A stretch of 64,000 bases of DNA, from the NCBI RefSeq assembly GCF_016615955.1, contig NZ_CP067113.1:2418001-2482000 (forward strand), read 5' to 3'. The notes below the pieces were generated by a model. That model had not been told where the DNA came from and did not search any database. It saw only the letters and a list, made by a program, of their open reading frames with translations. The stretch comes from Luteimonas sp. MC1750 (GTDB taxonomy: Bacteria; Pseudomonadota; Gammaproteobacteria; Xanthomonadales; Xanthomonadaceae). The position numbers and the translations under genes were made by a program. Shown here in pieces: positions 7,950 through 22,434 of this stretch; positions within the stretch are counted from its first letter, which is position 1, and each line of letters begins with the position of its first letter.

Positions 7950-9353
<1,404 letters not shown>

Positions 9354-9555: not shown

Positions 9556-9572
9556 TTGGCACGGGTTCTGCA
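9556..9572 (+). promoter_or_regulatory. Sigma-54 promoter of pilA
   Basis: TTGGCACG, four bases, then CTGCA: a -24/-12 element with one deviation from the TTGCA consensus. It lies about 100 bases before the pilA start, leaving a moderately long 5' leader that ends in a strong AGGGGA ribosome site. Confidence 0.85.
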
Positions 9573-9672: not shown

Positions 9673-10077
9673 ATGAAGAAGCAGCAGGGCTTTACCCTCA
9701 TCGAACTGATGATCGTGGTTGCGATCATCGCCATCCTGGCCGCGATCGCGCTGCCGGCGTACCAGGACTACATGGCCCGCTCGCAGGCCACTGCTGGTCT
9801 GGCTGATATCCGTGGCGGTGTGACGGCGGCGGAAGAGATGGTGCAGCGTGGTAGCGGCGCAGCCATTTCGCTGAACAACGTTGGCCTGACGAGCCCGACG
9901 ACGCGCTGCACCATTGTCGCTACCGCAAACGCGACCACGCCCTCCCTCGCCTGCACTCTGGTGGGCAATCCGCGGGTGAGCGGCTCGCACGTTACCCTGA
10001 CCCGTAATGCCAGTGGCCAGTGGCCGTGCACGACCAACATCACCGAGGCGAAGCACCGTCCCGCCCACTGCGGTTAA
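9673..10077 (+). CDS. pilA: Type IV major pilin PilA
   Basis: A 134-residue type IVa prepilin. The short leader MKKQQG is cut by PilD before Phe7 in the motif G|FTLIEL, with the conserved mature Glu5. The N-terminal helix ([32 protein letters not shown]) is canonical. The head has four cysteines in two close sets: one in the middle, and a C-terminal pair closing the D-region loop (WPC...HRPAHC). It is preceded by a sigma-54 promoter and an AGGGGA ribosome site seven bases before the ATG, and followed by a strong terminator. It therefore looks like the highly expressed main pilin. Confidence 0.96.
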
Positions 10078-10133
10078 GAGATTCACTCTGACCGACTATG
10101 GCGGCAACGCCAAGCTTTACGCGTGACGACCGG

Positions 10134-10169
10134 GAGGGGGCGGCTACCAAAGTCGTCCCCTCTTTTTTT
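10134..10169 (+). terminator. Rho-independent terminator after pilA
   Basis: A nine-base-pair stem (GAGGGGGCG against CGTCCCCTC, one G-T pair) is followed directly by seven T residues. It separates the pilA transcript from the second pilin. Confidence 0.9.
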
Positions 10170-10204: not shown

Positions 10205-10609
10205 ATGAGATCGTCCGGGTTTACTCTGATCGAGCTAATGATCGTGATCGCGATTCTCGCGATTCTGATGACAATTGCCCTCCCCGCGTACCAGGATTAC
10301 GCAGTCCGAACTCAAGTGACTTCGGGACTGGCAGACATCGCATCCGGCAAAGCATTGTTTGAGTCCCGTATCGTCGCCGACAGCATGATCACCTTTTCAC
10401 CGAGCGACGTTGGACTGCCTGCCAGTACCCCGCGTTGCAGCTCTATCTCCATTACGCCGGGTGATACTGGAAACATCTCATGCACGCTGGCCGGACACCC
10501 CCTGATACAGGGGGAAACGATCCGGCTGACACGCGTGGCATCAGGCACATGGACCTGTCACGCGCCAGCGGGCGCTTTGGCCAAGCACCGGCCAGAAGGA
10601 TGTTCATGA
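10205..10609 (+). CDS. Second type IV pilin (PilA paralogue)
   Basis: A 134-residue prepilin, the same length as PilA. The leader is MRSSG and the mature start is [32 protein letters not shown]. The head shares the overall plan ([15 protein letters not shown]) and the same four-cysteine pattern, ending WTC...KHRPEGC. The two heads otherwise differ strongly, so this is a diverged paralogue. No sigma-54 element is seen in the short gap after the pilA terminator, so it may rely on read-through or an unseen promoter. Its stop overlaps the start of the first GT-C-like protein (ATGA), linking it to that gene. Confidence 0.93.
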
Positions 10610-12462
10610 CAACAATCAGACCCGGTTGGGCATCCTGGATGACATCCGGATGGCTATGCCTGGTCGTCGCAATTGCGATCCTGGCCTATCTCCCGGGATT
10701 GTCGGGCGGCTTCCTGTTCGACGATTTCCCCAACATCGTCACCAATCCACGCGTCCACGCCAGCGCGTTGACGCTGGACAGCCTGTCGGCCGCCGCAGGC
10801 GCCTATGAGCCGGGGCCCTACGGCCGCCCCCTGGCCACGATCGGCTTCGCCTTGGACCACTACCTCGGCGGCGGCGATCCTCTCACGTACAAGCTGCACG
10901 GCCTGCTGATCCACGTCCTCAACGCCTGCCTGGTGTTTGCACTCGCACGAGTGCTGCTATCCACGGGCGGCGTGCGATCGGCAGACGAATCCAGGCGAAT
11001 CCTGCCTGCGGCGGCGTTGCTGGCGACGGCCTGGGCCATACACCCGCTGCAGGTCTCGTCGGTGCTCTATGTCGTGCAGCGCATGGAGACGCTGTCCGCC
11101 TGCTTCATCCTGCTGGCCCTGCTCGCCTACTGCAGAGGGCGACTTGACCAGCTTGAGGGCCGCTCGCATGGCTGGGGGTGGCTGGCCCTCTCCGCCGCCC
11201 TCACGGTCGTGGGCCTGTTCGCAAAGGAATCCGCCGCCATCACGCCGCTGCTGGCGCTGGTGCTGGAGGCGTGCCTGTTCCACTGGAAGGCGCAATCGGC
11301 TCGCACGCAGCAGGTGCTGCGGGTGCTGTATGTACTAGGCGGTGCACTCGGCCTAGCGCTGCTCGGCGTCGCCTTCTGGCACTACGGCAATCCGGAGGCC
11401 TACGCGTACCGCGAATACTCCGCGTGGGAACGCCTGCTGACCCAGGCCCGCGTGCTGGTCCTGCATCTGAAGCAGATCGTCCTGCCCATTCCCTCGAGGA
11501 TGCCGTTCTACTACGACAACTATCCGCACTCCGCTGGTCTATTCCAGCCCTGGACAACGGCGGCCAGCATCGCAGTCCTCGCAGCAATGACCGGACTGGC
11601 CCTCTGGCTCAGGACACGATTGCCGCTTGCGGCGTTGGGCATCTTCTGGTTCCTGGCGGCCCACGCGCTGACCAGCGGCATCATTCCGCTGGAACTCGTC
11701 TACGAGCATCGCAACTACCTCGCGCTGTTCGGGATCCTGCTTGCTATTTACGTGCTGGCTTCCGAATGGGTGCGCAAGGTGACTGCCTCGCCGATCATCC
11801 GCGCGGCACCGGTAGCGGTTATCGCCGGACTCTTCGCCATCACCCTGATCAGGTCGATGACCTGGGGGTCTCCGCTCCTGCTGGCGATGGACATGACCGC
11901 CACAAATCCGGGCTCGCCGCGCGCCAGCAACGACCTGGCGACACTCTACTTCAGCCTGGCGGAAGGCGACCCCGGCTCACGGGAGTGGACGCTGGCAACG
12001 CAGGAGTTCGAGCGTGGCGCGGCCTTGCAGGGGTCGTCCCCGCTGCCCGAGCATGGCCTGATCCTGATGAATGCGAGTGTCGGGCTGCCTGCATCTGACG
12101 CGTGGTGGGACGGCCTGATCCACAAGCTGCAGGTGCGCCCGATCTCCCCCCAAGAACAGATGGCTGTCACCGGGTTGCTGTCGGAGCGACAGAAGGGATT
12201 CCAGATCGATGACCAGCGGCTCTCGACTGCGTATCGCTCGCTTGTCGACAGAGGCGACCTTCCCGCGCATGTCTATTGCAACATCGGCGATCATGCCCTG
12301 AACCGGCTGGGCGACACGGAGTTCGGAAAGCACATGTTCCTCACCTGCGCGCGCAAGTCCGGGTTGGACCCACGCTTCATTCGAAAGACCGCGGAGATCC
12401 TCCGAGCTGAAGGTCACCATGAGGTCTCAACGGCACTCCTGGAACTCCAGGCCGACCGCTGA
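10606..12462 (+). CDS. GT-C-like multispanning membrane protein, possible pilin glycosyltransferase (copy 1)
   Basis: About 618 residues. It has a first transmembrane helix, then an extracytoplasmic loop with FLFDDFPNI (Asp39-Asp40). More hydrophobic helices follow ([54 protein letters not shown] and others). The soluble C-terminal ~180 residues are probably helical repeats. The acidic pair in the first loop and the overall plan resemble GT-C O-glycosyltransferases of the TMTC/PMT kind; this is resemblance, not identification. Chosen start is the ATG at 10606, with AAGGA upstream, overlapping the pilin stop. Position next to the pilin suggests sugar transfer to pilin. It could instead be a membrane protein of other function. 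Confidence 0.72.
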
Positions 12463-12487
12463 TTCCGATCGTCGACAACACCGAGCA

Positions 12488-14356
12488 ATGGACCAGCGCA
12501 ATACGCGGCCTGCGGCCGCATCATCCAGCCTCCTTGGCCCGCCTCCTGCGACCCGCGGAGAGGAAGACACCCGCCATCGATGGATGATCACCGCCGCCGC
12601 TGTGCTCCTCATTGCCGTTGTGTACTGGCCGGTGCGTCACGGAGGCTTCGTCTGGGACGACATCATCAACTTCGTCGAGAATGACTGGCTCCAGGCGGGA
12701 TCCCAGTGGCAGCACTACATTCTTCGTGACTTCAACGGCTGGACGAACTATTTCAGGCCCGTGGGTGTCGGCCTGTTCACCATACAAGTCCGCTTGTTCG
12801 ACAACCAGCCAGGCCCAATGCATCTGGTCTCGCTGGGCATGCACCTTTTCAACACCGCGCTGGTTGGAACTCTCGCAGCGCGAGTGATGGGCCCGCTGAA
12901 GGCCTTGGGCCGACACGCCCGCTTGGCCTGGCTGGCTGGCTGCATGCTGTTCTATGGCCTGCACCCGGTGCTGATCGAGACCGTCGCGTGGGTTGGTACC
13001 CAATACGATCAGCTCGCAACGGGATTCATGCTGTTGGGAGCCTGCGCCGCACTTTCGTTGCGGCGGAGGTTCGTTCGAGCAAGCATGGTCGGGCTGTGCT
13101 TCTTCCTGGCCATCTGCTCGAAGGAATCAGCCGCGTCCTTCCCAGTGCTGTTCCTGCTGCTGGACTGGGTGGTCTTCGCGAAGTCATCGCGAGGAACGGG
13201 CATGGCGGCCCTGCGTCGCAGCTTCCTGCGCCGGAACTCGGCGGCGATCATCGCCATCGTGATCGCTTCGGTCGGATACCTGCTGTTCCGCAACTTCGGG
13301 CTCGGACATCTGCTGCAGCATGTAGCGGTAGGTGGGGGCGACCTGTCGATCTTGGGAAGTCTCCAGAAAATCGCCTGGACACTCTTCACCTACCTGAGGG
13401 TGCTGATCTACCCTTGGAACGGCTTGAATCCGATCCACTCCTACGATCCGTCCTACTTCACATCGTTCCGACCCACTATCGCACTCATTCTTGCCGGCCT
13501 TGTGGCACTACTGTTCTGGGCGACAGTGGCCGTTTACAGGCGAGCATCGGCAGCCGCCTGCGTGGTTCTTGTCATTGCGTCTGCCTTGTTGCCAGTCCTG
13601 AATATCGTGCCCACCGCGTTCGCGCTCAGTCTCTACCACGAGCGATACGCCATCAACGCGTTGGCGTTTGGCACCGCGCTGTTGCCGTTGCTTTCCTGGC
13701 CACGTCCACGCGTCGTTTCGCCACGGCTCACGCGCATGCTGCTGTCCGCCGCGGCAATCGTCTGGCTTGGAAGTTCCATTCTGACGATACGTGCCACGTT
13801 GCCTCTTTGGCTCGACGACGAGCGACTCTGGCTTTGGGCGCTGGAAGACAATCCAACAAGTGAACTCGCGCAATACAATGCCGTTGCTGCCCTGCTTCGC
13901 AATGGAAAACTGGCGAAAGCAAGCGCGCAAATCGATAGGTTTGCGGCAGGGGACGAGGCGTGCACCCGTTGCGACCTACTGGTCGCAAGCATCGAGTTGA
14001 ATAACGGCGACATCCGTCGCGCAGCAGAACTGGTTGACCGTATCCGGGACGCTCCGGAGACCGCCGTGAATCTTGACGTTCGTGGCGACTACTTTCTGAC
14101 TGCAGGGCGTCTCGCTCTGTCGCAAGAAAGAAACCTCGCAGCGGTCGAACTGCTCCGCTCTGGAATCGAACTCCATCCAGGCCAGCTTTCAGCGCAGGTC
14201 GATCTTGCCAAGGCGCTTTTCAACACTGGGCAGTTGGATGAAGCGATTGCCGCCGCGACCAAGGCAGTAGACATTGCAGATGACGCGAATCGACCCTTGA
14301 TCGTTGCGTGGCGCGACAGCATCGAGGAATCGCTGAAGAACACGCAATCGCAGTAG
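12488..14356 (+). CDS. GT-C-like multispanning membrane protein with TPR tail (copy 2)
   Basis: About 622 residues, same design as its upstream neighbour but diverged. After a first helix (ITAAAVLLIAVVYWPV) comes the loop HGGFVWDDIINFVEND with Asp57-Asp58. Helices then run to about residue 450 (LAGCMLFYGLHPVLIETVAWVGTQYDQLATGFMLLG and others). The C-terminus holds TPR-like repeats (AVELLRSGIELHPGQLSAQVDLAKALFNTGQLDEAIAAATKAV). Key shared blocks with copy 1 are xDDxxNx[37 protein letters not shown], and CSKESAA/FAKESAA. These mark a tandem paralogue pair. An oligosaccharyl or monosaccharyl transferase role on pilin is inferred from context only. The ribosome site is weak. Confidence 0.72.
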   Translation: MDQRNTRPAAASSSLLGPPPATRGEEDTRHRWMITAAAVLLIAVVYWPVRHGGFVWDDIINFVENDWLQAGSQWQHYILRDFNGWTNYFRPVGVGLFTIQVRLFDNQPGPMHLVSLGMHLFNTALVGTLAARVMGPLKALGRHARLAWLAGCMLFYGLHPVLIETVAWVGTQYDQLATGFMLLGACAALSLRRRFVRASMVGLCFFLAICSKESAASFPVLFLLLDWVVFAKSSRGTGMAALRRSFLRRNSAAIIAIVIASVGYLLFRNFGLGHLLQHVAVGGGDLSILGSLQKIAWTLFTYLRVLIYPWNGLNPIHSYDPSYFTSFRPTIALILAGLVALLFWATVAVYRRASAAACVVLVIASALLPVLNIVPTAFALSLYHERYAINALAFGTALLPLLSWPRPRVVSPRLTRMLLSAAAIVWLGSSILTIRATLPLWLDDERLWLWALEDNPTSELAQYNAVAALLRNGKLAKASAQIDRFAAGDEACTRCDLLVASIELNNGDIRRAAELVDRIRDAPETAVNLDVRGDYFLTAGRLALSQERNLAAVELLRSGIELHPGQLSAQVDLAKALFNTGQLDEAIAAATKAVDIADDANRPLIVAWRDSIEESLKNTQSQ

Positions 14357-14408
14357 CAAATAGACGTCAGCTTCGTCTACCTCAGAAAGATCTTCCACGG
14401 AGTCTCTC

Positions 14409-15569
14409 ATGGCCTCTAATAAGCCCTACCTTGTTTTCGGCGCCCCCAGCATCGGTGAAGAGGAAATCACAGAAGTCGGCTTGGTGATGCGCAGCGGGTG
14501 GCTGGGAACCGGGCCGAAAGTTGCGCAATTCGAACAAGACTTTGCGGCGTACAAAGGCGTCAGCAGTTCATCCGTCGCCGCGGTGAACTCGTGCACTGCC
14601 GCCTTGCACGTGAGCATGGTGGCGGCTGGGCTGGATCCAGGGGCCGAAGTGATCACCACCCCGCTGACATTCTGTGCCACTGTCAACGCAATCCTCCACG
14701 CGGGCCTATCTCCCGTCCTCGCCGATGTCGATCCTGCCACGCAATGCATCGACCCCGAAGCGATCGAGGCCGCCATCACGCCGCGTACTCAAGCGATTCT
14801 GCCTGTACATTTCGGCGGACGTCCGTGCGACATGGATCGCATCATGGCGATCGCCGAGAAGCACAGGCTGGTGGTCATAGAGGATTGCGCGCACGCCATC
14901 GAAACCGAGTACAGGGGACGCAAGGCGGGCACGTTCGGCGACTTCGGCTGTTTCAGTTTTTATGTCACCAAGAACGTCGTCACCGCCGAAGGCGGCATGA
15001 TCCTGGCAAGAGACGAGTCACTGGCAGCGCGGGCCAAGGTACTTGCGCTGCACGGCATGAGCAAGGATGCATGGCACCGATTCGGGGACGCTGGCTACAA
15101 GCACTATCAGGTAGTTGAGTGCGGCTTTAAGTACAACTTGACCGACTTGCAGGCAGCGCTGGGCCTTCACCAGCTTGCGCGCGTGGAGCAGAACTGGCTG
15201 AGGCGACAGAAAGTCTGGCAGCAGTATCAGGCGGCACTTGTCGACGCCCCTGTTGGCACACCGCTCGATCCCGCACCTGACACCAGGCACGCCCACCACC
15301 TCTACACCGTCATGATAGACGTCGAACGGTGCGGCGTGACCCGCGATTCCTTCCTCGATCGGATGCACGCGCTTGGGATCGGCACCGGCGTGCACTACCT
15401 GGCAGTTCCTGAGCATCACTATTATCGCGAGCGCTTTGGTTGGCGCCCAGAGCAATGGCCCAATGCCATGGAGATTGGTCGCCGCACTGTGAGCTTGCCG
15501 CTTTCACCCAAACTCGAAGACGCCGACGTGCTTCGGGTTCTTGAAGGAGTTTCAGCCTCACTCGCGTGA
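14409..15569 (+). CDS. DegT/DnrJ/EryC1/StrS-family sugar aminotransferase
   Basis: A 386-residue PLP-dependent enzyme of the family that aminates nucleotide keto-sugars. Seen: the N-terminal substrate loop (SGWLGTGPKVAQFEQDFAAYKG), AVNSCTAALHVSM, TTPLTFCATVNAI, Asp159 in VIEDCAHAIET, and the PLP lysine Lys188 in FSFYVTKNVVTAEGG. It probably makes a UDP- or dTDP-4-amino sugar. It follows the GT-C pair by 52 bases on the same strand. Together with the acetyltransferase at 15.6-16.2 kb on the opposite strand, it could make an N-acylated amino sugar for the glycan. The enzyme class is confident; the exact sugar is not. Confidence 0.9.
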   Translation: MASNKPYLVFGAPSIGEEEITEVGLVMRSGWLGTGPKVAQFEQDFAAYKGVSSSSVAAVNSCTAALHVSMVAAGLDPGAEVITTPLTFCATVNAILHAGLSPVLADVDPATQCIDPEAIEAAITPRTQAILPVHFGGRPCDMDRIMAIAEKHRLVVIEDCAHAIETEYRGRKAGTFGDFGCFSFYVTKNVVTAEGGMILARDESLAARAKVLALHGMSKDAWHRFGDAGYKHYQVVECGFKYNLTDLQAALGLHQLARVEQNWLRRQKVWQQYQAALVDAPVGTPLDPAPDTRHAHHLYTVMIDVERCGVTRDSFLDRMHALGIGTGVHYLAVPEHHYYRERFGWRPEQWPNAMEIGRRTVSLPLSPKLEDADVLRVLEGVSASLA

Positions 15570-15648
15570 GCCCAGGAGGCAGCAGTTGCGGTGTCCGTCG
15601 TGCGACGCACTGCGAAATTGCCACCATGCCCGGGTGATCAGATTGCGG

Positions 15649-16161
15649 TCAGCTACGCAAACCCGTCCTTACGGCGGGAACGCCCACGTAGACGCTGTGC
15701 CGTTCAAGCGCGCCCTTCACGAGTGCGCCCGCGCCGACGACCGTGCCTTCACCAACCTTCGAACCGGACAGAAGGGTCGCTGATGCTCCGATCCAGCAAT
15801 TCGCACCAATGCATATGCCGTTGTTCTCAGACGGGTACCGCACCGAAAGCGGAGACGCGTGGGATTCGCCTGCGTCCGAATGACTCATGAGCGTTACGCG
15901 TGGCGAAAGCACCGCGCCGTCGCCGATCCGCACTGGCCCCGCGAGGTCAAACAGGCAGTCGGTGCCGACATGCACATCGTTGCCAATCGACAGATTGGAG
16001 AATCCTCGCTGCAGGTTGATGAAACGGCAGTCGTAGATCCTCGCGTTACGCCCTATGGCGGCGCCGAGCATTGACAAAAGCCGGGCACGCAAGCGCGGAT
16101 TGATACATAACCGTAGCAATATCTCTACGACCAAGAAAAGGCCGTACTTCAGGTCATGCAC
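15649..16161 (-). CDS. Left-handed beta-helix (hexapeptide) acyltransferase
   Basis: A 170-residue protein with the imperfect hexapeptide repeats of the LbH family: IGRNARIYDCRF, LSIGNDVHVGTDC, VRIGDGAVLSPRVTLMSHS, ICIGANCWIGASATLLSGSKVGEGTVVGAGALVKG. It ends VPAVRTG, the usual close of WbbJ/maltose-acetyltransferase-type enzymes. The His in MSHSDAG fits the catalytic base. A short hydrophobic N-terminal stretch may anchor it. It is last in the leftward glycan operon and overlaps the flippase-like gene by eight bases. Donor and acceptor are unknown; acetyl-CoA and a sugar are likely. Confidence 0.87.
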   Translation of the reverse strand: MHDLKYGLFLVVEILLRLCINPRLRARLLSMLGAAIGRNARIYDCRFINLQRGFSNLSIGNDVHVGTDCLFDLAGPVRIGDGAVLSPRVTLMSHSDAGESHASPLSVRYPSENNGICIGANCWIGASATLLSGSKVGEGTVVGAGALVKGALERHSVYVGVPAVRTGLRS

Positions 16162-17092
16162 TTTTGTTTCCCTCCGACGTCCTGAGTGCGAGAAATCCTA
16201 CCCCGGCACCGATCCCGTCCACTAACAGCAACGCAATTCTGGACGTAACGGCGAGGAGCGCCATCAGTTCGAAAGGTACGCCGGAAGACGGGCCGAGAAG
16301 TAGCAGCACCGCTTCACGGGCGCCAAGACCGGCAGGCAGCATGCTCGCGAGCCCCGCAACGTAGGACAGTGACAAACATGCCACGACCAGCCCCGTACCA
16401 ACCTCGGCGACACCAGGGAGCGTGCTGGCAAGCTGCCACCATCCGATCAGGTACATCGCCCAGAATCCGGCGAGCTGGAGGGCCAAGGTTATTCCAACCC
16501 GGGAGACAGGCAACCCGACGTCCCGTACGGCTGCCAACTTCTTCGGAAGCGGCAGCCGGACAATTGCAAAGTTGAGCAGGTTGAACACCCAAGAGCGCTG
16601 CAGCGTCGATGCAGTCACAGCGAACGCCAGCAACAACGCCCCCAGTCCGATGGTAGTTCCATACCAGTGAGCGAGGAGCAGGGCTGCACCGATACCGCAG
16701 GTCGTGAAAAGCACGATCACCGCAAGCTCAACGTTGACAAGAACCAGCCGTGCTGGCGATTCGGCGCGGATTATGGACGCCTGCGCAACCATGCCCCACA
16801 CGCGGCCCGGAACGTACTTGCCCAATTGAGTGAACAAGAAGACGCCGGCCATTCGCCGCTGAGAACCGGCATCGCCTTCCGGACGCCCCAACATGGTGGC
16901 AAACAGCACAGCTACGAACACATTCGCGAGCACGAGCGCGAAGATCGATGTTGCAAATGCCTGCGTGCTTGTAGTCGAGATGGCGTCCTGAAATGCGTCT
17001 CTTGAGCGGTAGACCAAATAGCTGAAGAACAACAGTCCGACGATGACCATCGCGCGGAGAAAGCTAGCGCGAGAGAATGGAGTCTGTGTCAA
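16154..17092 (-). CDS. Flippase-like / LPG-synthase transmembrane-domain protein
   Basis: A 312-residue polytopic membrane protein with about eight hydrophobic segments. It carries blocks typical of the lysylphosphatidylglycerol-synthase TM/flippase-like family: QLGKYVPGRVWGMVAQ, LSYVAGLASMLPAGLGAREAVLLLL and a final VDGIGAGVGFL. Members are often found in glycan and lipid clusters, with roles suggested in moving or modifying lipid-linked substrates. It lies in the middle of the leftward operon, 39 bases after a methyltransferase. A role in moving a lipid-linked sugar is inference from company. Confidence 0.78.
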   Translation of the reverse strand: MTQTPFSRASFLRAMVIVGLLFFSYLVYRSRDAFQDAISTTSTQAFATSIFALVLANVFVAVLFATMLGRPEGDAGSQRRMAGVFLFTQLGKYVPGRVWGMVAQASIIRAESPARLVLVNVELAVIVLFTTCGIGAALLLAHWYGTTIGLGALLLAFAVTASTLQRSWVFNLLNFAIVRLPLPKKLAAVRDVGLPVSRVGITLALQLAGFWAMYLIGWWQLASTLPGVAEVGTGLVVACLSLSYVAGLASMLPAGLGAREAVLLLLGPSSGVPFELMALLAVTSRIALLLVDGIGAGVGFLALRTSEGNKSA

Positions 17093-17131
17093 TTGTCACT
17101 CCGTGGGGCTGTCAGGTTACCAACACGCATA

Positions 17132-17854
17132 TCACCGCGCATGCCGCAGATGGAATACGAATCCTGGTTGCACTGGCGCCAGCGCTCTGCCGGCACGCGC
17201 AGCAAGTCCAAACGCGCGTCCCGACATAGCGTCTTCCGGGAACCCGGCTTCCAGCCTTTCCGCAAAGACGTTGCGGTACTCGAAACCCGCCTCGCGAAAC
17301 CAGCGGGCCAGCCGGAAATAGCTGGAAGAGTACGCGTCGAGTTCCCTGGCCCTGTGCGATCCAAGTGCGGTCATGCAACGATGTGCGGTCGTTCTGGGCA
17401 GCCAATGCACGAACGGCCAGAATACATGCGGCTCGATGGGCCACCACAGGTTTGGACCAGCAAAGTAGCAGTGTCCATCGCGCTTCAGCATCCGGTGAAT
17501 GTTCACCAGTAGCGCGAACGGATCGCGCACATGTTCGTAAACCTGATTGCAGACCACGATGTCGTACCTCGCGGCAGGTAAAGGCGGCTCGGGGCCATCA
17601 CATTCACCAACATGGAAGCGCAGGTTTTCGGTTTCGGCTTCAAACGTCCGCCAATGAGTCCACGAGTCCGGATCAACACCTTCTACATACTGCACTTGGT
17701 CCGCCAGTGCCCGAGCGATGCCGCCACTGCCGCAACCCGCGTCCAGCCATCGCCCCCCTACCACAGTGTCCCCGCATATCATCCGCATGGTGCGCAAGAT
17801 TGCGGCGGCCTTCCGGTCCCTGTTCTTGGCACCCCAGCGCGGTTCAGTAGACAT
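17132..17854 (-). CDS. Class I SAM-dependent methyltransferase
   Basis: A 240-residue Rossmann-fold methyltransferase: motif I RWLDAGCGSGGIARALADQ, acidic loop VEGVDPDS, motif IV DIVVCNQVYEHVRDPFALL, and LKRDGHCYFAGPN. This matches the Methyltransf_11/UbiE-like group. The ATG at 17854 overlaps the end of the GT4 gene by 11 bases; a longer in-frame start would read through that gene and is rejected. The substrate is unknown; in glycan clusters such enzymes often methylate a terminal sugar. Confidence 0.85.
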   Translation of the reverse strand: MSTEPRWGAKNRDRKAAAILRTMRMICGDTVVGGRWLDAGCGSGGIARALADQVQYVEGVDPDSWTHWRTFEAETENLRFHVGECDGPEPPLPAARYDIVVCNQVYEHVRDPFALLVNIHRMLKRDGHCYFAGPNLWWPIEPHVFWPFVHWLPRTTAHRCMTALGSHRARELDAYSSSYFRLARWFREAGFEYRNVFAERLEAGFPEDAMSGRAFGLAARAGRALAPVQPGFVFHLRHAR

Positions 17855-19004
17855 GGGTTCTGCTCGATGCCTTGGCCAGAATGCAAGTGGCCGAGGCCTT
17901 GACGTCGAACCTCGCCGCCATAGCGACACATCCTGAGGCGTGCTGGATCGGCGAAGCCTGGATAGCCTCACGCAGCGCGTGCACGATCCCATCTGCAGTC
18001 GCCTTCGGAGCGAGAACGCCACAGGCAGGGGTCTGGGCCAGAAGACCAGGAAAGTCGCCCACCGGTGTGACGACGACCGGCAAGCCCAGCTTCATCGCAT
18101 CGGAGAACACCACCGGAATGCTCTCGATCCTCGACGGAATCAGCAGGTAATCGGACGCCAGCATGGCGTCCTGGGCTTGGTCGCGGGTCAGGTAACCCGT
18201 CAGTTCCACCGGTTTCGCGTCATCCTGCAGTTTCCGCACGGCGGCACGCACTTCGACATCAAGGGGGCCGCCTCCGGCCACCACGACCCGCTCAATGCCG
18301 CCCCAGTCGGACGCCGACAGCTGCGCCAGCGCTTCCAGCAGAAGATCCACCCCCTTGTTGGGATGCCAGCGCCCCAGGAACAGGAAGCGGTACGGCGGCA
18401 GGCTGCGCATCGGCTCCAGGCGCACACGGTCGATCCTGCGCGTGCTGGGCAGGAAGGCCACCTCCCGCCCTGCGATGGCACGCGTGTCTTCCATGAGCTT
18501 CAATCCATCCGACCAGCAGTGCGTGGCTCCAGCGAGAATTCTCCGGAGAAGGCCGCGCACCACCGGGATCCGTCCCAGGCTCCATATGTCGCTACCGAGC
18601 GTCCATACCGAGTACCCGCAGGCGTGCTTTCGCGCCGACCTGCGCGCCCACTCGCCGCACGGCAGGGCCCATAACGCCAGGATGTGTGCGACAGGACCCG
18701 CAGAAGCCGCTTGCTCCGTTGCGCGCGCGCCGCCCACCATCACGCGGGCGATCTTCAGGGCATCAGACGGCTGCCAGGGCCGAAGCGTCGAGAGCGGCTG
18801 ATCCGGAGTACGGTAACGGAACACATCGACGTTCTCTGACCAGGACTCGACGGCCTCCACGCCTCCGGGCGCGACCACGCGGATCGGCATGTGCTGCGCC
18901 AGCTCCTCGGCCAGATCGGCCACGAACGCGCCCGCAGCTTCGCTCCCGTCACCGGTGATCGGAAACGATGATGTCACCAGGACAAGCGCTGGCAACTCGT
19001 TCAT
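17844..19004 (-). CDS. GT4-family glycosyltransferase
   Basis: A 386-residue GT-B glycosyltransferase. The N-terminal part is LVLVTSSFPITGDGSEAAGAFVADLAEEL. The C-terminal nucleotide-sugar domain shows FLFLGRWHPNKGVDLLLEAL, VVAGGGPLDVEV and the GT4 acidic signature ESIPVVFSDAMKLGLPVVVTPVG. Start is the ATG at 19004, overlapping the preceding methyltransferase stop (ATGA). It is predicted to be cytoplasmic, adding a sugar to a lipid-linked acceptor. The sugar is unknown. Confidence 0.88.
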   Translation of the reverse strand: MNELPALVLVTSSFPITGDGSEAAGAFVADLAEELAQHMPIRVVAPGGVEAVESWSENVDVFRYRTPDQPLSTLRPWQPSDALKIARVMVGGARATEQAASAGPVAHILALWALPCGEWARRSARKHACGYSVWTLGSDIWSLGRIPVVRGLLRRILAGATHCWSDGLKLMEDTRAIAGREVAFLPSTRRIDRVRLEPMRSLPPYRFLFLGRWHPNKGVDLLLEALAQLSASDWGGIERVVVAGGGPLDVEVRAAVRKLQDDAKPVELTGYLTRDQAQDAMLASDYLLIPSRIESIPVVFSDAMKLGLPVVVTPVGDFPGLLAQTPACGVLAPKATADGIVHALREAIQASPIQHASGCVAMAARFDVKASATCILAKASSRTHVY

Positions 19005-19729
19005 GGCCGCACGGCCAGCACTCGATAACCCGCCGTCAAGGCGGGCCAGGGTGGAAGAAGCCTGCCCAGCAGCCAAGAAGCGATGTTGACCAGCGGAATC
19101 ACAACGGTCAGGAGCGGCAGCAGAAGAATCGCGTAGCTGCGCCGGCGGATTGCTTCTCCCGCCGTCCCGCCGAGCGCAAGACTGAACAGCAAGCCGGCGC
19201 TTTCGACACTTCCCAACGTGGGCGAACACTCGCTGGCTGCGAGGCCCGCCGCCTGAAGTTCCCGCTGCAGTCCATGCGCCGTGTAACGCTGGTAGTCGTG
19301 AGGCGCGTCGTGCACCGGGTACAGGAACGGCAGCGTCATCAGCAGGACCCCTCCAGGCTTCAGCACTCGCGCGATCTCCGGCAATGCAGCCTCCGGATGA
19401 CGAAGGTGCTCGAGCACTTCAAGCAGAAGCACGGTGTCGATGGAGGCATCCGGGAACGGCAACCGGCCTGCGTCGCCGAACACGTCCGGTTTTGCTCCGT
19501 AAAGCACGCCGCCGGTAGCAGGATAGTCGAGTGCCAGGTACTGACTGTCGGCCCGAAGGTGGGGAACGATCCAGCGGTCGGCGCACCCGATGTCGAGCAC
19601 GCGGCCCTGGGCATGCTGTCCGACCCAACTTGCAGTGCCTGCCTGGCTGCCCAACAGCCATTGCGGGTGCAGCGGCGTTCGCCTCAATGGCAGGAGCCAG
19701 CTGCGGACGCGCTGGAGTGGTGGGTTCAC
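19001..19729 (-). CDS. SAM-dependent methyltransferase with membrane-like C-terminus
   Basis: A 242-residue protein: motif I GRVLDIGCADRWIVPHL, YLALDYPATG, then VLLLEVLEHLRHPEAALPEIARVLKPGGVLLMTLPFLYPVHDAPHDYQRYT, typical of Methyltransf_11. The last ~60 residues include a hydrophobic stretch (SYAILLLPLLTVVIPLVNIASWLLG), suggesting membrane association. It overlaps both neighbours by four bases (ATGA), so it is translationally coupled within the glycan operon. The substrate is unknown; a lipid-linked sugar would fit the hydrophobic tail. Confidence 0.84.
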   Translation of the reverse strand: MNPPLQRVRSWLLPLRRTPLHPQWLLGSQAGTASWVGQHAQGRVLDIGCADRWIVPHLRADSQYLALDYPATGGVLYGAKPDVFGDAGRLPFPDASIDTVLLLEVLEHLRHPEAALPEIARVLKPGGVLLMTLPFLYPVHDAPHDYQRYTAHGLQRELQAAGLAASECSPTLGSVESAGLLFSLALGGTAGEAIRRRSYAILLLPLLTVVIPLVNIASWLLGRLLPPWPALTAGYRVLAVRP

Positions 19730-20577
19730 GTGTCGCGCCGGTAAGTCAGGGACGTGATCTGCTCGGAGATCAGCCCGATCAGGAAGATGATCACCGACGC
19801 ACTGAACAGCAACACGCTCATGTTGGTGAAGCGGCCTTCGGTGAAATATGTATACGCGTAGTATCCGAGAGCTGTCAGAAAGAACACCATCGATACCGGA
19901 ACGAACAGCTTCAACGGCGAATACAGCGTCGCGATCTTGAAGATGATGAGCAGGAAGCGGACGCCGTCGCGGAGCGGGCGGATATGGCTGCGGCCGATGC
20001 GGCGGGCAACGGGTACGGGCTCGTACGCGACGGCATACGCGCTTCTGAAGAACGCCATCGTGGACGTCGTCGGATAGCTGAACCCGTTTGGCAGCAAATG
20101 CAGGAATTCACGGAACCTGTCCGCGCGCACGACCCGGAAGCCCGATGTCAGATCCTTCACATCGAATCCGGTCATGCGGCTCGCCAGCCAGTTGTAGAAC
20201 GCGTTGGCGGCGCCACGGTGCATGCCCGCCTGATCACTCCAGCGGCGAGCTCCGACCACCATGTCATAGCCCTGCTCGAACCTGGCCAGCAGCGTTGCGA
20301 TGTGGGCCGGATCATGCTGTCCGTCTGCATCCATGAAGACCAGGGTGTCACCCGTGGCGGCGCGCGCTCCTCTCTTGATGGCAGCGCCGTTCCCCATCGG
20401 GTAAGGCGATGACAGCACCTTGGCGCCATGGGCGGAGGCGACCTCGGCGGTCGCATCGTCTGACCCGTCGTCCACCACGATGACCTCGGCCCCCGGCAGG
20501 ATGGCCCTGAGCGCAGGCAAGGTGCGGCGCAGGCCTTCGGCCTCGTTCTTGGCGGGCAGGATGATCGAAACTTGCAT
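19726..20577 (-). CDS. GT2-family glycosyltransferase, polyprenyl-phosphate sugar synthase type
   Basis: A 283-residue GT-A enzyme: SIILPAKNEAEGLRRTLPAL, VIVVDDGSDDAT, PMGNGAAIKRGARAATGDTLVFMDADGQHD (DAD at 83-85), and GARRWSDQAG. Two hydrophobic helices follow at the C-terminus (LKLFVPVSMVFFLTALGYYAY, VLLFSASVIIFLIGLIS). This plan matches dolichyl/undecaprenyl-phosphate sugar transferases that make the lipid-P-sugar donors used by GT-C enzymes. That fits well with the two GT-C-like proteins at 10.6-14.4 kb. It is first in the leftward operon, divergent from pilB. Confidence 0.88.
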   Translation of the reverse strand: MQVSIILPAKNEAEGLRRTLPALRAILPGAEVIVVDDGSDDATAEVASAHGAKVLSSPYPMGNGAAIKRGARAATGDTLVFMDADGQHDPAHIATLLARFEQGYDMVVGARRWSDQAGMHRGAANAFYNWLASRMTGFDVKDLTSGFRVVRADRFREFLHLLPNGFSYPTTSTMAFFRSAYAVAYEPVPVARRIGRSHIRPLRDGVRFLLIIFKIATLYSPLKLFVPVSMVFFLTALGYYAYTYFTEGRFTNMSVLLFSASVIIFLIGLISEQITSLTYRRDT

Positions 20578-20660: not shown

Positions 20661-20676
20661 TGGCACAGGCATTGCT
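20661..20676 (+). promoter_or_regulatory. Sigma-54 promoter of pilB
   Basis: TGGCACA, four bases, then TTGCT matches the -24/-12 consensus fully (TGGCACR-N4-TTGCW). It lies 34 bases before the pilB start, giving a leader with a GGAGG ribosome site. An ACGTCA/TGACGT inverted repeat lies just upstream (20620-20649), but closer than a usual enhancer. Confidence 0.8.
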
Positions 20677-20709
20677 TGCGCTAAAGTCTGCGCATTGCGG
20701 AGGACCCCC

Positions 20710-22434
20710 ATGAACGCAGTCCCATCGGCCAACCTGGTCGGCATCACCGGCATCGCCCGTCGCCTCGTCCTCGACGGGGTCCTGGACGATGCCACAGCCC
20801 GTGACGCGCTGGACAAGGCCACCCGGGAGCGCAAGCCCGTGTCCCAGTACCTGCGCGAGCACAAGCTGGCCACCGCGGCCCAGATGGCCGCCGCCAACTC
20901 GATCGAGTTCGGGATGCCCGTCTTCGACCCGTCAGTGATGGACGGCAGCCAGAGCGGCCTCAAGCTGGTCAGCGAGGAGCTGCTGGCCAAGCACCCCATC
21001 TTGCCGCTGTTCAAGCGCGGCGGGCGGCTGTTCGTAGGGACGCCCGACCCGACCAATACCCATGCGCTGGACGAGGTGAAGTTCCACACCAACCTGGTGG
21101 TGGAGCCGATCCTGGTGGACGAGGAGAAGCTGCGCCGCTGCCTGGAGCTGTGGCAGGACGCCGGCGACAGCTTCGGCGAATCGCTGGACGATTCCGAGGG
21201 GCTGGACAACCTCGACATCACCGGCGGGGAGGAGGACGGCGCGGAGGGCGGCGTCGACGCCAAGGGCGACGACACGCCGGTAGTCAAGTTCGTGAACAAG
21301 GTCCTGATCGATGCCATCAAGAAGGGCGCGTCGGACATCCATTTCGAGCCCTACGAGAACGACTACCGGGTGCGCCTGCGCATCGACGGCATCCTCAAGC
21401 AGGTTGCCAAGATGCCGGTGAAGCTGAACCAGCGGATTACCGCGCGCCTGAAGGTCATGGCGCAGCTGGATATCGCCGAGAAGCGGGTGCCCCAGGACGG
21501 CCGCATCAAGCTCAACATCAGCAAGACCAAGCAGATTGACTTCCGTGTCAGCACCTTGCCGACCCTGTTCGGCGAAAAGGTCGTGCTGCGTATCCTGGAC
21601 GGCAGCGCAGCCAAGCTCGGCATCGACAAGCTTGGCTATGAGCCCGAGCAGCAGAAGCTGTTCCTGGACGCCATCCACAAGCCCTACGGCATGGTCCTGG
21701 TGACCGGCCCCACCGGCTCCGGCAAGACGGTCAGCCTGTACACCGCCCTGGGCATCCTGAACGACGAGACCCGCAACATCTCCACGGCGGAGGACCCGGT
21801 GGAAATCCGCCTTCCAGGCGTCAACCAGGTCCAGCAGAACGTCAAGCGGGGCATGACCTTCGCCGCGGCGCTGCGCAGTTTCCTGCGTCAGGATCCGGAC
21901 ATCATCATGGTGGGCGAAATCCGCGACATCGAGACCGCCGAAATCGCGATCAAGGCCGCGCAGACCGGCCACATGGTGCTCTCCACCCTGCACACCAATG
22001 ACGCCCCCCAGACCATCGCCCGCCTGATGAACATGGGCATTGCGCCTTTCAACATTACCAGCTCGGTGACCCTGGTCATCGCGCAGCGCCTGTGCCGGCG
22101 GCTTTGTCCCAAGTGCAAGCGCCCCCAGGAGCTGCCGGACAACGCGCTGCTGGCGGAGGGCTTCGCGACCGATGACATCCGAGAGGGTTTTACCGTTTAC
22201 GAGGCCGTGGGCTGCGACGAGTGCACCAGCGGCTACAAGGGGCGCCTGGGCATCTATCAGGTGCTGCCGATGAGCGAGGAGATCCAGACCATCGTGCTCC
22301 AGGGGGGCAACGCCCTGCAGATCGCCGAAGCGGCGCAAGGAGCCGGCGTCAAGGATCTCCGCCAGTCGGCCCTGGTGAAGGTGAAGAGCGGGCTGACCAG
22401 CCTGGCCGAGATCAACCGCGTGACCGTGGACTGA
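20710..22434 (+). CDS. pilB: PilB, type IV pilus extension ATPase
   Basis: A 574-residue hexameric ATPase that drives pilus extension from the cytoplasmic face. The N-terminal MshE/GspE N domain (ITGIARRLVLDGVLDDATARDALDKA) is followed by the catalytic core. The core has Walker A GPTGSGKT around residues 333-340, the Asp box STAEDPVE, Walker B DIIMVGEIRD, and the His box STLHTNDAPQ. A tetra-Cys zinc site follows (CRRLCPKCK...CDECTSGYKG). The ATG at 20710 follows GGAGG closely; a TTG further upstream is less likely. Confidence 0.96.
   Translation: MNAVPSANLVGITGIARRLVLDGVLDDATARDALDKATRERKPVSQYLREHKLATAAQMAAANSIEFGMPVFDPSVMDGSQSGLKLVSEELLAKHPILPLFKRGGRLFVGTPDPTNTHALDEVKFHTNLVVEPILVDEEKLRRCLELWQDAGDSFGESLDDSEGLDNLDITGGEEDGAEGGVDAKGDDTPVVKFVNKVLIDAIKKGASDIHFEPYENDYRVRLRIDGILKQVAKMPVKLNQRITARLKVMAQLDIAEKRVPQDGRIKLNISKTKQIDFRVSTLPTLFGEKVVLRILDGSAAKLGIDKLGYEPEQQKLFLDAIHKPYGMVLVTGPTGSGKTVSLYTALGILNDETRNISTAEDPVEIRLPGVNQVQQNVKRGMTFAAALRSFLRQDPDIIMVGEIRDIETAEIAIKAAQTGHMVLSTLHTNDAPQTIARLMNMGIAPFNITSSVTLVIAQRLCRRLCPKCKRPQELPDNALLAEGFATDDIREGFTVYEAVGCDECTSGYKGRLGIYQVLPMSEEIQTIVLQGGNALQIAEAAQGAGVKDLRQSALVKVKSGLTSLAEINRVTVD

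Follow-up and report, generated by a model that had tools for sequence, protein, structure and literature searches.

What might two membrane proteins encoded between pilin genes and pilB do for a type IV pilus? The question arises from an island of Luteimonas sp. MC1750, whose genome is a single contig of 2.99 Mb (NZ_CP067113.1) and of which we analysed a stretch of 64,000 nucleotides (positions 2,418,001 to 2,482,000, forward strand; hereafter the window, whose own numbering is used throughout). Between pilR and pilB, this island carries two type IVa pilin genes (pilA1 and pilA2), two genes for glycosyltransferases (GTs) of the GT-C class with tetratricopeptide repeat (TPR) or TPR-like tails (GTC1 and GTC2), a DegT aminotransferase gene and an opposed six-gene operon that includes a GT2-family enzyme (GT2). 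Judging from sequence comparison and structure models, the island most likely makes a lipid-carried sugar and attaches it to pilin. We hold with good confidence that pilin is glycosylated by means of a GT2-charged lipid carrier and the GT-C proteins, and with less confidence the finer details of the mechanism.

GT-C fold and motifs of the two membrane proteins

The second pilin gene, pilA2 (10205-10609, plus strand; PF00114, 66.2 bits), runs with its stop codon into the start of GTC1, the candidate pilin glycosyltransferase (10606-12462, plus strand), by 4 bp, an overlap that the original prediction for this DNA had already pointed out; GTC2 follows at 12488-14356 on the same strand. That prediction took both products for GT-C-like membrane proteins with an acidic pair in the first external loop and a soluble repeat tail, and named a missing GT-C fold as an outcome that would speak against it. 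Structure prediction and fold comparison revealed the GT-C fold in both models, and the first extracytoplasmic loop holds the acidic pairs, FDD at residues 38-40 of GTC1 and WDD at residues 56-58 of GTC2. Fold comparison was needed, as the matches listed (60 of 96) for a GT-C sequence profile run against solved structures were TPR proteins, repeat proteins or designed ones, without a single GT-C. No match reached E 0.001 with plain Foldseek, whose top ranks mixed oligosaccharyltransferase and TPR chains; VIA re-alignment of the Foldseek results placed GT-C enzymes first. The C-terminal parts of both models are helical repeats matching TPR proteins, as anticipated; Pfam detected TPR in GTC2 only and no family in GTC1.

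Over 88 aligned sequences, D40, R74, H146, K207/E208, H368, Y371 and W420 are invariant, with D40 in all 88 rows and D39 in 61 of 61 GTC1-type and 24 of 27 GTC2-type sequences. This pattern bears on a reading of the GT-C proteins as catalysis-dead pilin accessory chaperones, similar to TfpY, to which we give hardly any credence: dead proteins would require neither the invariance of D40, R74, K207, E208, H368, Y371 and W420 nor the GT2 partner that is usually retained.

The GT-C fold, together with motifs like those of TMTC, PMT and ArnT, supports the proposed resemblance to TMTC/PMT enzymes, the TMTC motifs being matched in part. As described in the available part of PMC7801869, TMTC1-4 are animal O-mannosyltransferases that combine a GT-C with a trans-side C-terminal TPR, and their motifs are M1 DD, M2 SHKSYRP, M3 RxD, M4 KE(T/Q)xxT and M7 ERxxY. 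M1 DD and M4 KE match here, of M2 only RP does, and the counterparts of M3 and M7 are, respectively, RME in GTC1-type and QxD/E in GTC2-type sequences, and EHRNY in GTC1 and YHERY in GTC2. The proteins differ from TMTC1-4 in that the Pfam model TMTC_DUF1736 (PF08409) had no match in GTC1 or GTC2 at E 0.1; it was also absent among the families listed for 63 rows (25 of 29 families) and for 40 rows. The substrates of TMTC1-4 are cadherins.

The predicted contrast with TfpO-like enzymes held as well. TfpO/PilO, TfpM, PglS and PglL modify pilins or pilin-like proteins, and all carry WaaL-like O-antigen-ligase domains according to the portion of a 2025 review at hand (PMC12645811), whereas no such Pfam domain was found in GTC1 or GTC2, nor did the families listed for 103 rows (25 of 29 families for 63 rows, all families for 40) include one.

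Linkage of GT-C, GT2 and pilin genes

The presumed partner, GT2 (19726-20577, minus strand; PF00535, 107 bits), joins its PF00535 domain to two C-terminal hydrophobic helices, as inferred from a simple hydropathy count. Its closest solved relatives, ArnC and dolichol-phosphate-mannose (DPM) synthase, agree with its original assignment as a polyprenyl-phosphate-sugar synthase homologue, and its best NCBIfam model was AglJ (108 bits, below the cut-off of 325).

Of 61 relatives, 17 had a GTC1 match at E 3e-37 or better and one more a weak match (7e-6). Those 17, and no others, also had a GT2 match at E 6e-96 or better, the next genome following at 5e-44; the GT2 threshold was placed in this gap after the gap had been seen. 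Outside this count, genome G005 (locus L063) has a distant GT-C directly after a pilin, along with an ArnC-like GT2. The GT-C lies beside a pilin in 15 of 17 loci retrieved for these matches (window excluded); of the remaining two, L044, which includes pilB-D, stops about 2 kb past the GT-C, and L045 represents the weak match. According to the open reading frame (ORF) caller, GT2 directly neighbours pilB or pilC in 14 of 17 GT-C-bearing loci (window included), the exceptions having two small ORFs (L081) or one gene (L087) in between, or no pilB (L089). We also inspected 40 named loci with flanks of at most 8 kb, nearly all labelled Lysobacterales or Wenzhouxiangella, with one metagenome-assembled genome labelled Rhizobium. 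A pilin-signature ORF was evident in 38; one of the other two, L119, starts inside the GT-C.

We then surveyed 274 genomes of the class with a profile of both GT-Cs (E 1e-20), GT2 (E 1e-65) and PilB (E 1e-140). The GT-C profile matched 87 genomes and GT2 76: both occurred in 74, GT-C only in 13, GT2 only in 2 (one with a stop codon) and neither in 185. PilB was present in all 74 pair-bearing genomes, that of G094 with stops, and the association of GT-C with GT2 persists within the 194 PilB-positive genomes (74 both, 11 GT-C only, 2 GT2 only, 107 neither). The two match positions lie at most 3 kb apart in 60 of 73 genomes (own genome excluded). For pilin proximity we took the 29 best-scoring of the 86 other GT-C genomes and 29 more of our choice, 58 in all: a pilin lay within 2 kb of the GT-C in 42, nine had too little upstream DNA and seven had none, against a chance expectation of about 0.03 per 6 kb derived from 15 N-methyl matches in the own genome. 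The co-occurrence check called for by the original prediction thus revealed linkage of GT-C to pilin across many genera, as well as co-occurrence of GT-C with a polyprenyl-phosphate-sugar synthase homologue.

In genome G094, GT-C, GT2 and PilB matches carry 7, 2 and 5 stops, respectively, within about 17 kb (contig C1, about 1390552-1407662), apparently a decayed type IV pilus and glycosylation locus.

These surveys also weigh on the possibility that the GT-C/GT2 pair modifies lipopolysaccharide, O antigen or another periplasmic glycan in the manner of Gtr or Arn systems, pilin proximity reflecting an exchange hot spot. GT2, DegT and the GT-C fold are each akin to components of the Arn pathway, and the interval is clearly exchangeable. 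Moreover, the Gtr trio of GtrA flippase, GtrB polyprenyl-phosphate-sugar synthase and GT-C is a three-component system of similar design, known examples of which work on O antigen (PMC11127046, in the part available); that description includes no pilin linkage or TPR tail. Yet a hot spot would predict neither a nearby pilin in 42 of 58 genomes, nor PilB in 74 of 74, nor a TPR tail, and in G094 the three genes look as if lost together. We therefore consider this explanation quite improbable.

General protein O-glycosylation, with pilins among many periplasmic targets as for PglL, is a more plausible though still unlikely alternative. The presence of two GT-C paralogues with a TPR tail would suit it, and PglL enzymes modify other proteins besides pilins; nevertheless, the excerpted review describes tight substrate linkage for TfpO/PilO, TfpM and PglS, which are often encoded near their substrate, and not widely for PglL (PMC12645811), and the linkage found here is close.

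A variable, exchangeable slot between pilR and pilB

The slot is bordered by PilR (7950-9353) and the pilus extension ATPase PilB (20695-22434, plus strand; PF00437, 496.8 bits; MshEN, 54.1 bits), and the ORF list reproduced the gene arrangement first described. Chance ORFs are ruled out, because the genes have relatives in many genera and two of the products gave confident structure models. Among named organisms, the nearest protein matches come from Luteimonas sp. MC1895. Third-position GC content falls from 0.94 in pilR to 0.62-0.81 from pilA1 to GT2 and returns to 0.91 in pilB (pilR and pilB-D span 0.905-0.94); owing to this drop and return at the borders, the entire segment from pilA to GT2 has the look of an acquired cassette. 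Distances correlated at 0.83 between PilA2 and GTC1 and at 0.40 between PilB and GTC1 in 17 loci. These are what remained of 41 (window plus 40) after dropping 24 that lacked one of five genes in the examined DNA or had short segments. In partial Mantel tests given PilB, the values with GTC1 were 0.79 for PilA2, 0.75 for PilA1 and 0.56 for GT2, each with p 0.001, the minimum possible with 999 permutations.

The DegT/ArnB-like nucleotide-sugar aminotransferase predicted after the GT-C pair was readily recognized (14409-15569, plus strand; PF01041, 412.7 bits); its best solved relatives are ArnB, and the NCBIfam cut-offs for ArnB and PseC were not reached. In the ArnB-ArnC-ArnT aminoarabinose pathway the acceptor is lipid A. 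The present set departs from that pathway in that its DegT scores under the NCBIfam ArnB cut-off and belongs to a cluster found in only 5 of 17 GT-C loci; because of this scarcity, GT2 probably loads something other than the amino-sugar. DegT proteins of several islands are about 70-73% identical.

The other genes of the minus-strand set encode a methyltransferase (MT1, 19001-19729; PF08241, 55.7 bits), a GT4 glycosyltransferase (17844-19004; PF13692, 81.8 bits on ORF 17844-19229), a second methyltransferase (MT2, 17132-17854; PF13489, 73 bits on ORF 17132-18022), an LPG_synthase_TM-like membrane protein that is a candidate lipid-sugar flippase (16154-17092; PF03706, 29.7 bits, cut-off 33.4) and a hexapeptide-repeat acyltransferase (HEX, 15649-16161; PF00132, 48.2 bits; WcaF-like subfamily, 71.3 bits, below cut-off), the starts of MT2 and GT4 having been picked by codon score. 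The description of this set as an overlapping operon stands for four junctions, where genes overlap as an operon would (GT2/MT1 4, MT1/GT4 4, GT4/MT2 11 and flippase-like/HEX 8 bases), and fails for that between MT2 and the flippase-like gene, which do not overlap.

Methyltransferases, GT4s, DegT, asparagine synthase and others are present in some islands and absent from others. A constant GT2 next to such changing middle genes suggests that the first sugar is shared and the outer parts differ. Other islands contain cluster mates of the flippase-like protein or PF03706 proteins over the cut-off (L084, L088), and seven of nine multi-helix proteins scanned from other islands passed a transporter-type cut-off (PF03706 LPG_synthase_TM, Polysacc_synt types or ABC), those of L034 and L082 giving no hit. 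GT4 and these transporter types point to more than one sugar being moved here. Some pilin islands also hold an asparagine-synthase-like enzyme (L080 9825-11534, scanned; cluster mates in L081 and L063) that perhaps amidates a sugar acid. A long fused MFS/spermidine-synthase-like membrane protein recurs near slot pilin genes (L043 11844-14861, scanned; cluster mates in L059, L084, L086, L088 and L092).

Leaving L063 aside, we examined the slot in 26 loci from 25 relatives without the GT-C, where it is often short. Seven of these loci (L058, L062, L065, L066 and L090-L092) carry a cluster protein of about 240 amino acids between pilA and pilB, and the member scanned, from L058, scored 267 bits with NCBIfam TfpX/TfpZ (cut-off 200), a pilin accessory protein type. 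Four of the 26 loci feature sulfatase-fold, phosphoethanolamine-transferase-like membrane proteins near a pilin (L066 6265-8115, L059 4479-6239 and cluster mates in L069 and L077); both proteins scanned matched PF00884, and one also EptA_B_N over the cut-off. The small neighbour of the L066 protein is a methyltransferase, and those in L069 and L077 fall in the same broad cluster. This sulfatase-fold slot is a possible pilin phospho-modification variant, for which the phosphoform modification of Neisseria pilin is a parallel. In some X. vesicatoria strains, two glycosyltransferase genes and a RarD/EamA transporter lie next to a pilin gene in the interval from pilB to pilC, according to the part of PMC10333488 available.

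Several observations weigh against pilin glycosylation by this gene set. Locus L124, which breaks off at the GT-C, has pilB/pilC but lacks a pilin in the 5.8 kb upstream. GT2 lies inside the examined DNA in only 22 of the 40 named loci, and the eight Dyella/Rhodanobacter loci have none within the flanks. Two of the 13 class genomes with GT-C and no GT2 lack PilB as well. As for the seven genomes without a pilin within 2 kb despite DNA being present, G320 starts its contig with the GT-C genes and G177 has pilins 3.2 kb off; homologues regularly found without pilins, combined with an unmodified pilin mass, had been named as grounds for rejection, and pilins proved usually, not always, present. 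What the Mantel result shows is a cassette moving as one block; it does not single out one pilin as the substrate, since PilA1 and GT2 also correlate with GTC1, and the Fisher and Mantel values are uncorrected for phylogeny (Mantel only for PilB distance). Finally, the original call of a flippase-like protein survives as a gene that is present with a weak assignment, its PF03706 score being below the cut-off.

Pilins, proposed mechanism and meaning

PilA1 (9673-10077, plus strand; PF00114, 61.8 bits; N_methyl, 45.1 bits) is the probable major pilin. Using the sigma-54 -24/-12 consensus, we located a sigma-54-like site with one mismatch at 9557-9571 (plus strand), 102 bp before pilA1, and a perfect match at 20661-20675 (plus strand), 35 bp before a pilB ATG (20710). 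When up to two mismatches are allowed, the window shows no excess of matches (58 found, 82.65 expected from shuffles), so that only position and quality argue for the pilA1 site. Between pilA1 and pilA2, a terminator-like hairpin of 14 pairs with a T tract (10132-10164, plus strand; -24.4 kcal/mol, against a mean of -1.9 and a lowest value of -12.8 in 30 shuffles) is a possible attenuator. A stem with T tract at or below -10 kcal/mol occurs between the pilin genes in 15 of 23 loci, in each of which the minimum over 30 shuffles goes beyond -10 kcal/mol too, and six of the 23 have no T tract found; a conserved attenuator is thus only partly supported. Terminators after a major pilin that limit accessory gene expression are known in other bacteria (PMC11841053, part available).

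Conserved Ser/Thr positions are T63, T75 and S113 in PilA2 (24 rows) and S37, T40, T51, T76 and S114 in PilA1 (22 rows), 14 loci of other arrangement and three without a listed upstream pilin having been excluded. We abandoned naming a glycosylation site from them, given that they may be structural and that S+T content is alike (0.195 in PilA2, 0.193 in PilA1). PilA2, which adjoins GTC1, has a conserved T/S-F step at residues 63-64 (T/S in 0.88 of rows, F in 22 of 24). This step, which is missing from the list of conserved PilA1 columns, may be a recognition feature. One-to-one pairing of pilins and GT-Cs was likewise discarded, as a single GT-C accompanies two pilins in many of the named loci.

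A GT-C precedent for pilin modification is TfpW of Pseudomonas group IV pilins, encoded beside pilA and modifying pilin at multiple sites (PMC12369383, part available). Compared by description only, TfpW differs in adding D-Araf, whereas the present set has a constant ArnC/AglJ-like GT2 and a TPR tail. The 2025 review tabulates TfpO, TfpM, PglS and PglL, with neither 'TfpW' nor 'GT-C' in its main text as available (PMC12645811). PglL_A was found in 3 of the 274 class genomes. Since its model spans 26 residues and is absent from known TfpO/TfpM (same source), this is not a fair count of rival systems. Among the papers listed in searches of the open-licence PMC literature, none connected pilin glycosylation with a GT-C that bears TPRs or is TMTC-like, and none dealt with the present GT-C/GT2 pair.

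We infer a three-component lipid-phosphate-sugar system directed at pilin. In the cytoplasm, GT2 would load a sugar onto polyprenyl phosphate, and the DegT enzyme, GT4, methyltransferases and acyltransferase would make or decorate the glycan, which a membrane transporter of variable type would turn to the periplasmic face. There the GT-Cs, with the Asp pair of the first external loop, would transfer it to Ser/Thr of membrane-held pilin before assembly, the periplasmic TPR tail presenting the pilin. With GT2 and GT-C as constant core and middle genes varying the glycan from strain to strain, pilin surface chemistry would be switchable, perhaps under phage or grazing pressure.

We lean slightly towards a broader proposal, namely that a large, unnamed family of TMTC-like GT-C/TPR proteins, every member paired with an ArnC/AglJ-like synthase of its own, serves across the taxonomic class (the pair occurring in 74 of 274 sampled genomes, all PilB-bearing) as a widespread system dedicated to pilin glycosylation. 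It would be unrelated to WaaL-like pilin ligases and fed by mono-phosphate lipid donors, with the middle genes in the role of a serotype cassette for pili. If true, pilin glycosylation would be far commoner than work on Pseudomonas, Acinetobacter and Neisseria has indicated, by enzymes nearer in architecture to animal TMTC O-mannosyltransferases than to known WaaL-like pilin ligases. A pilin beside GT-C/TPR and GT2 would then be a genomic marker predicting bacteria with sugar-coated pili, and the system a simple bacterial model of how a TPR-tailed GT-C selects its protein substrate. The exchangeable slot would be the pilus counterpart of O-antigen serotype loci and a place to seek phage-driven variation.

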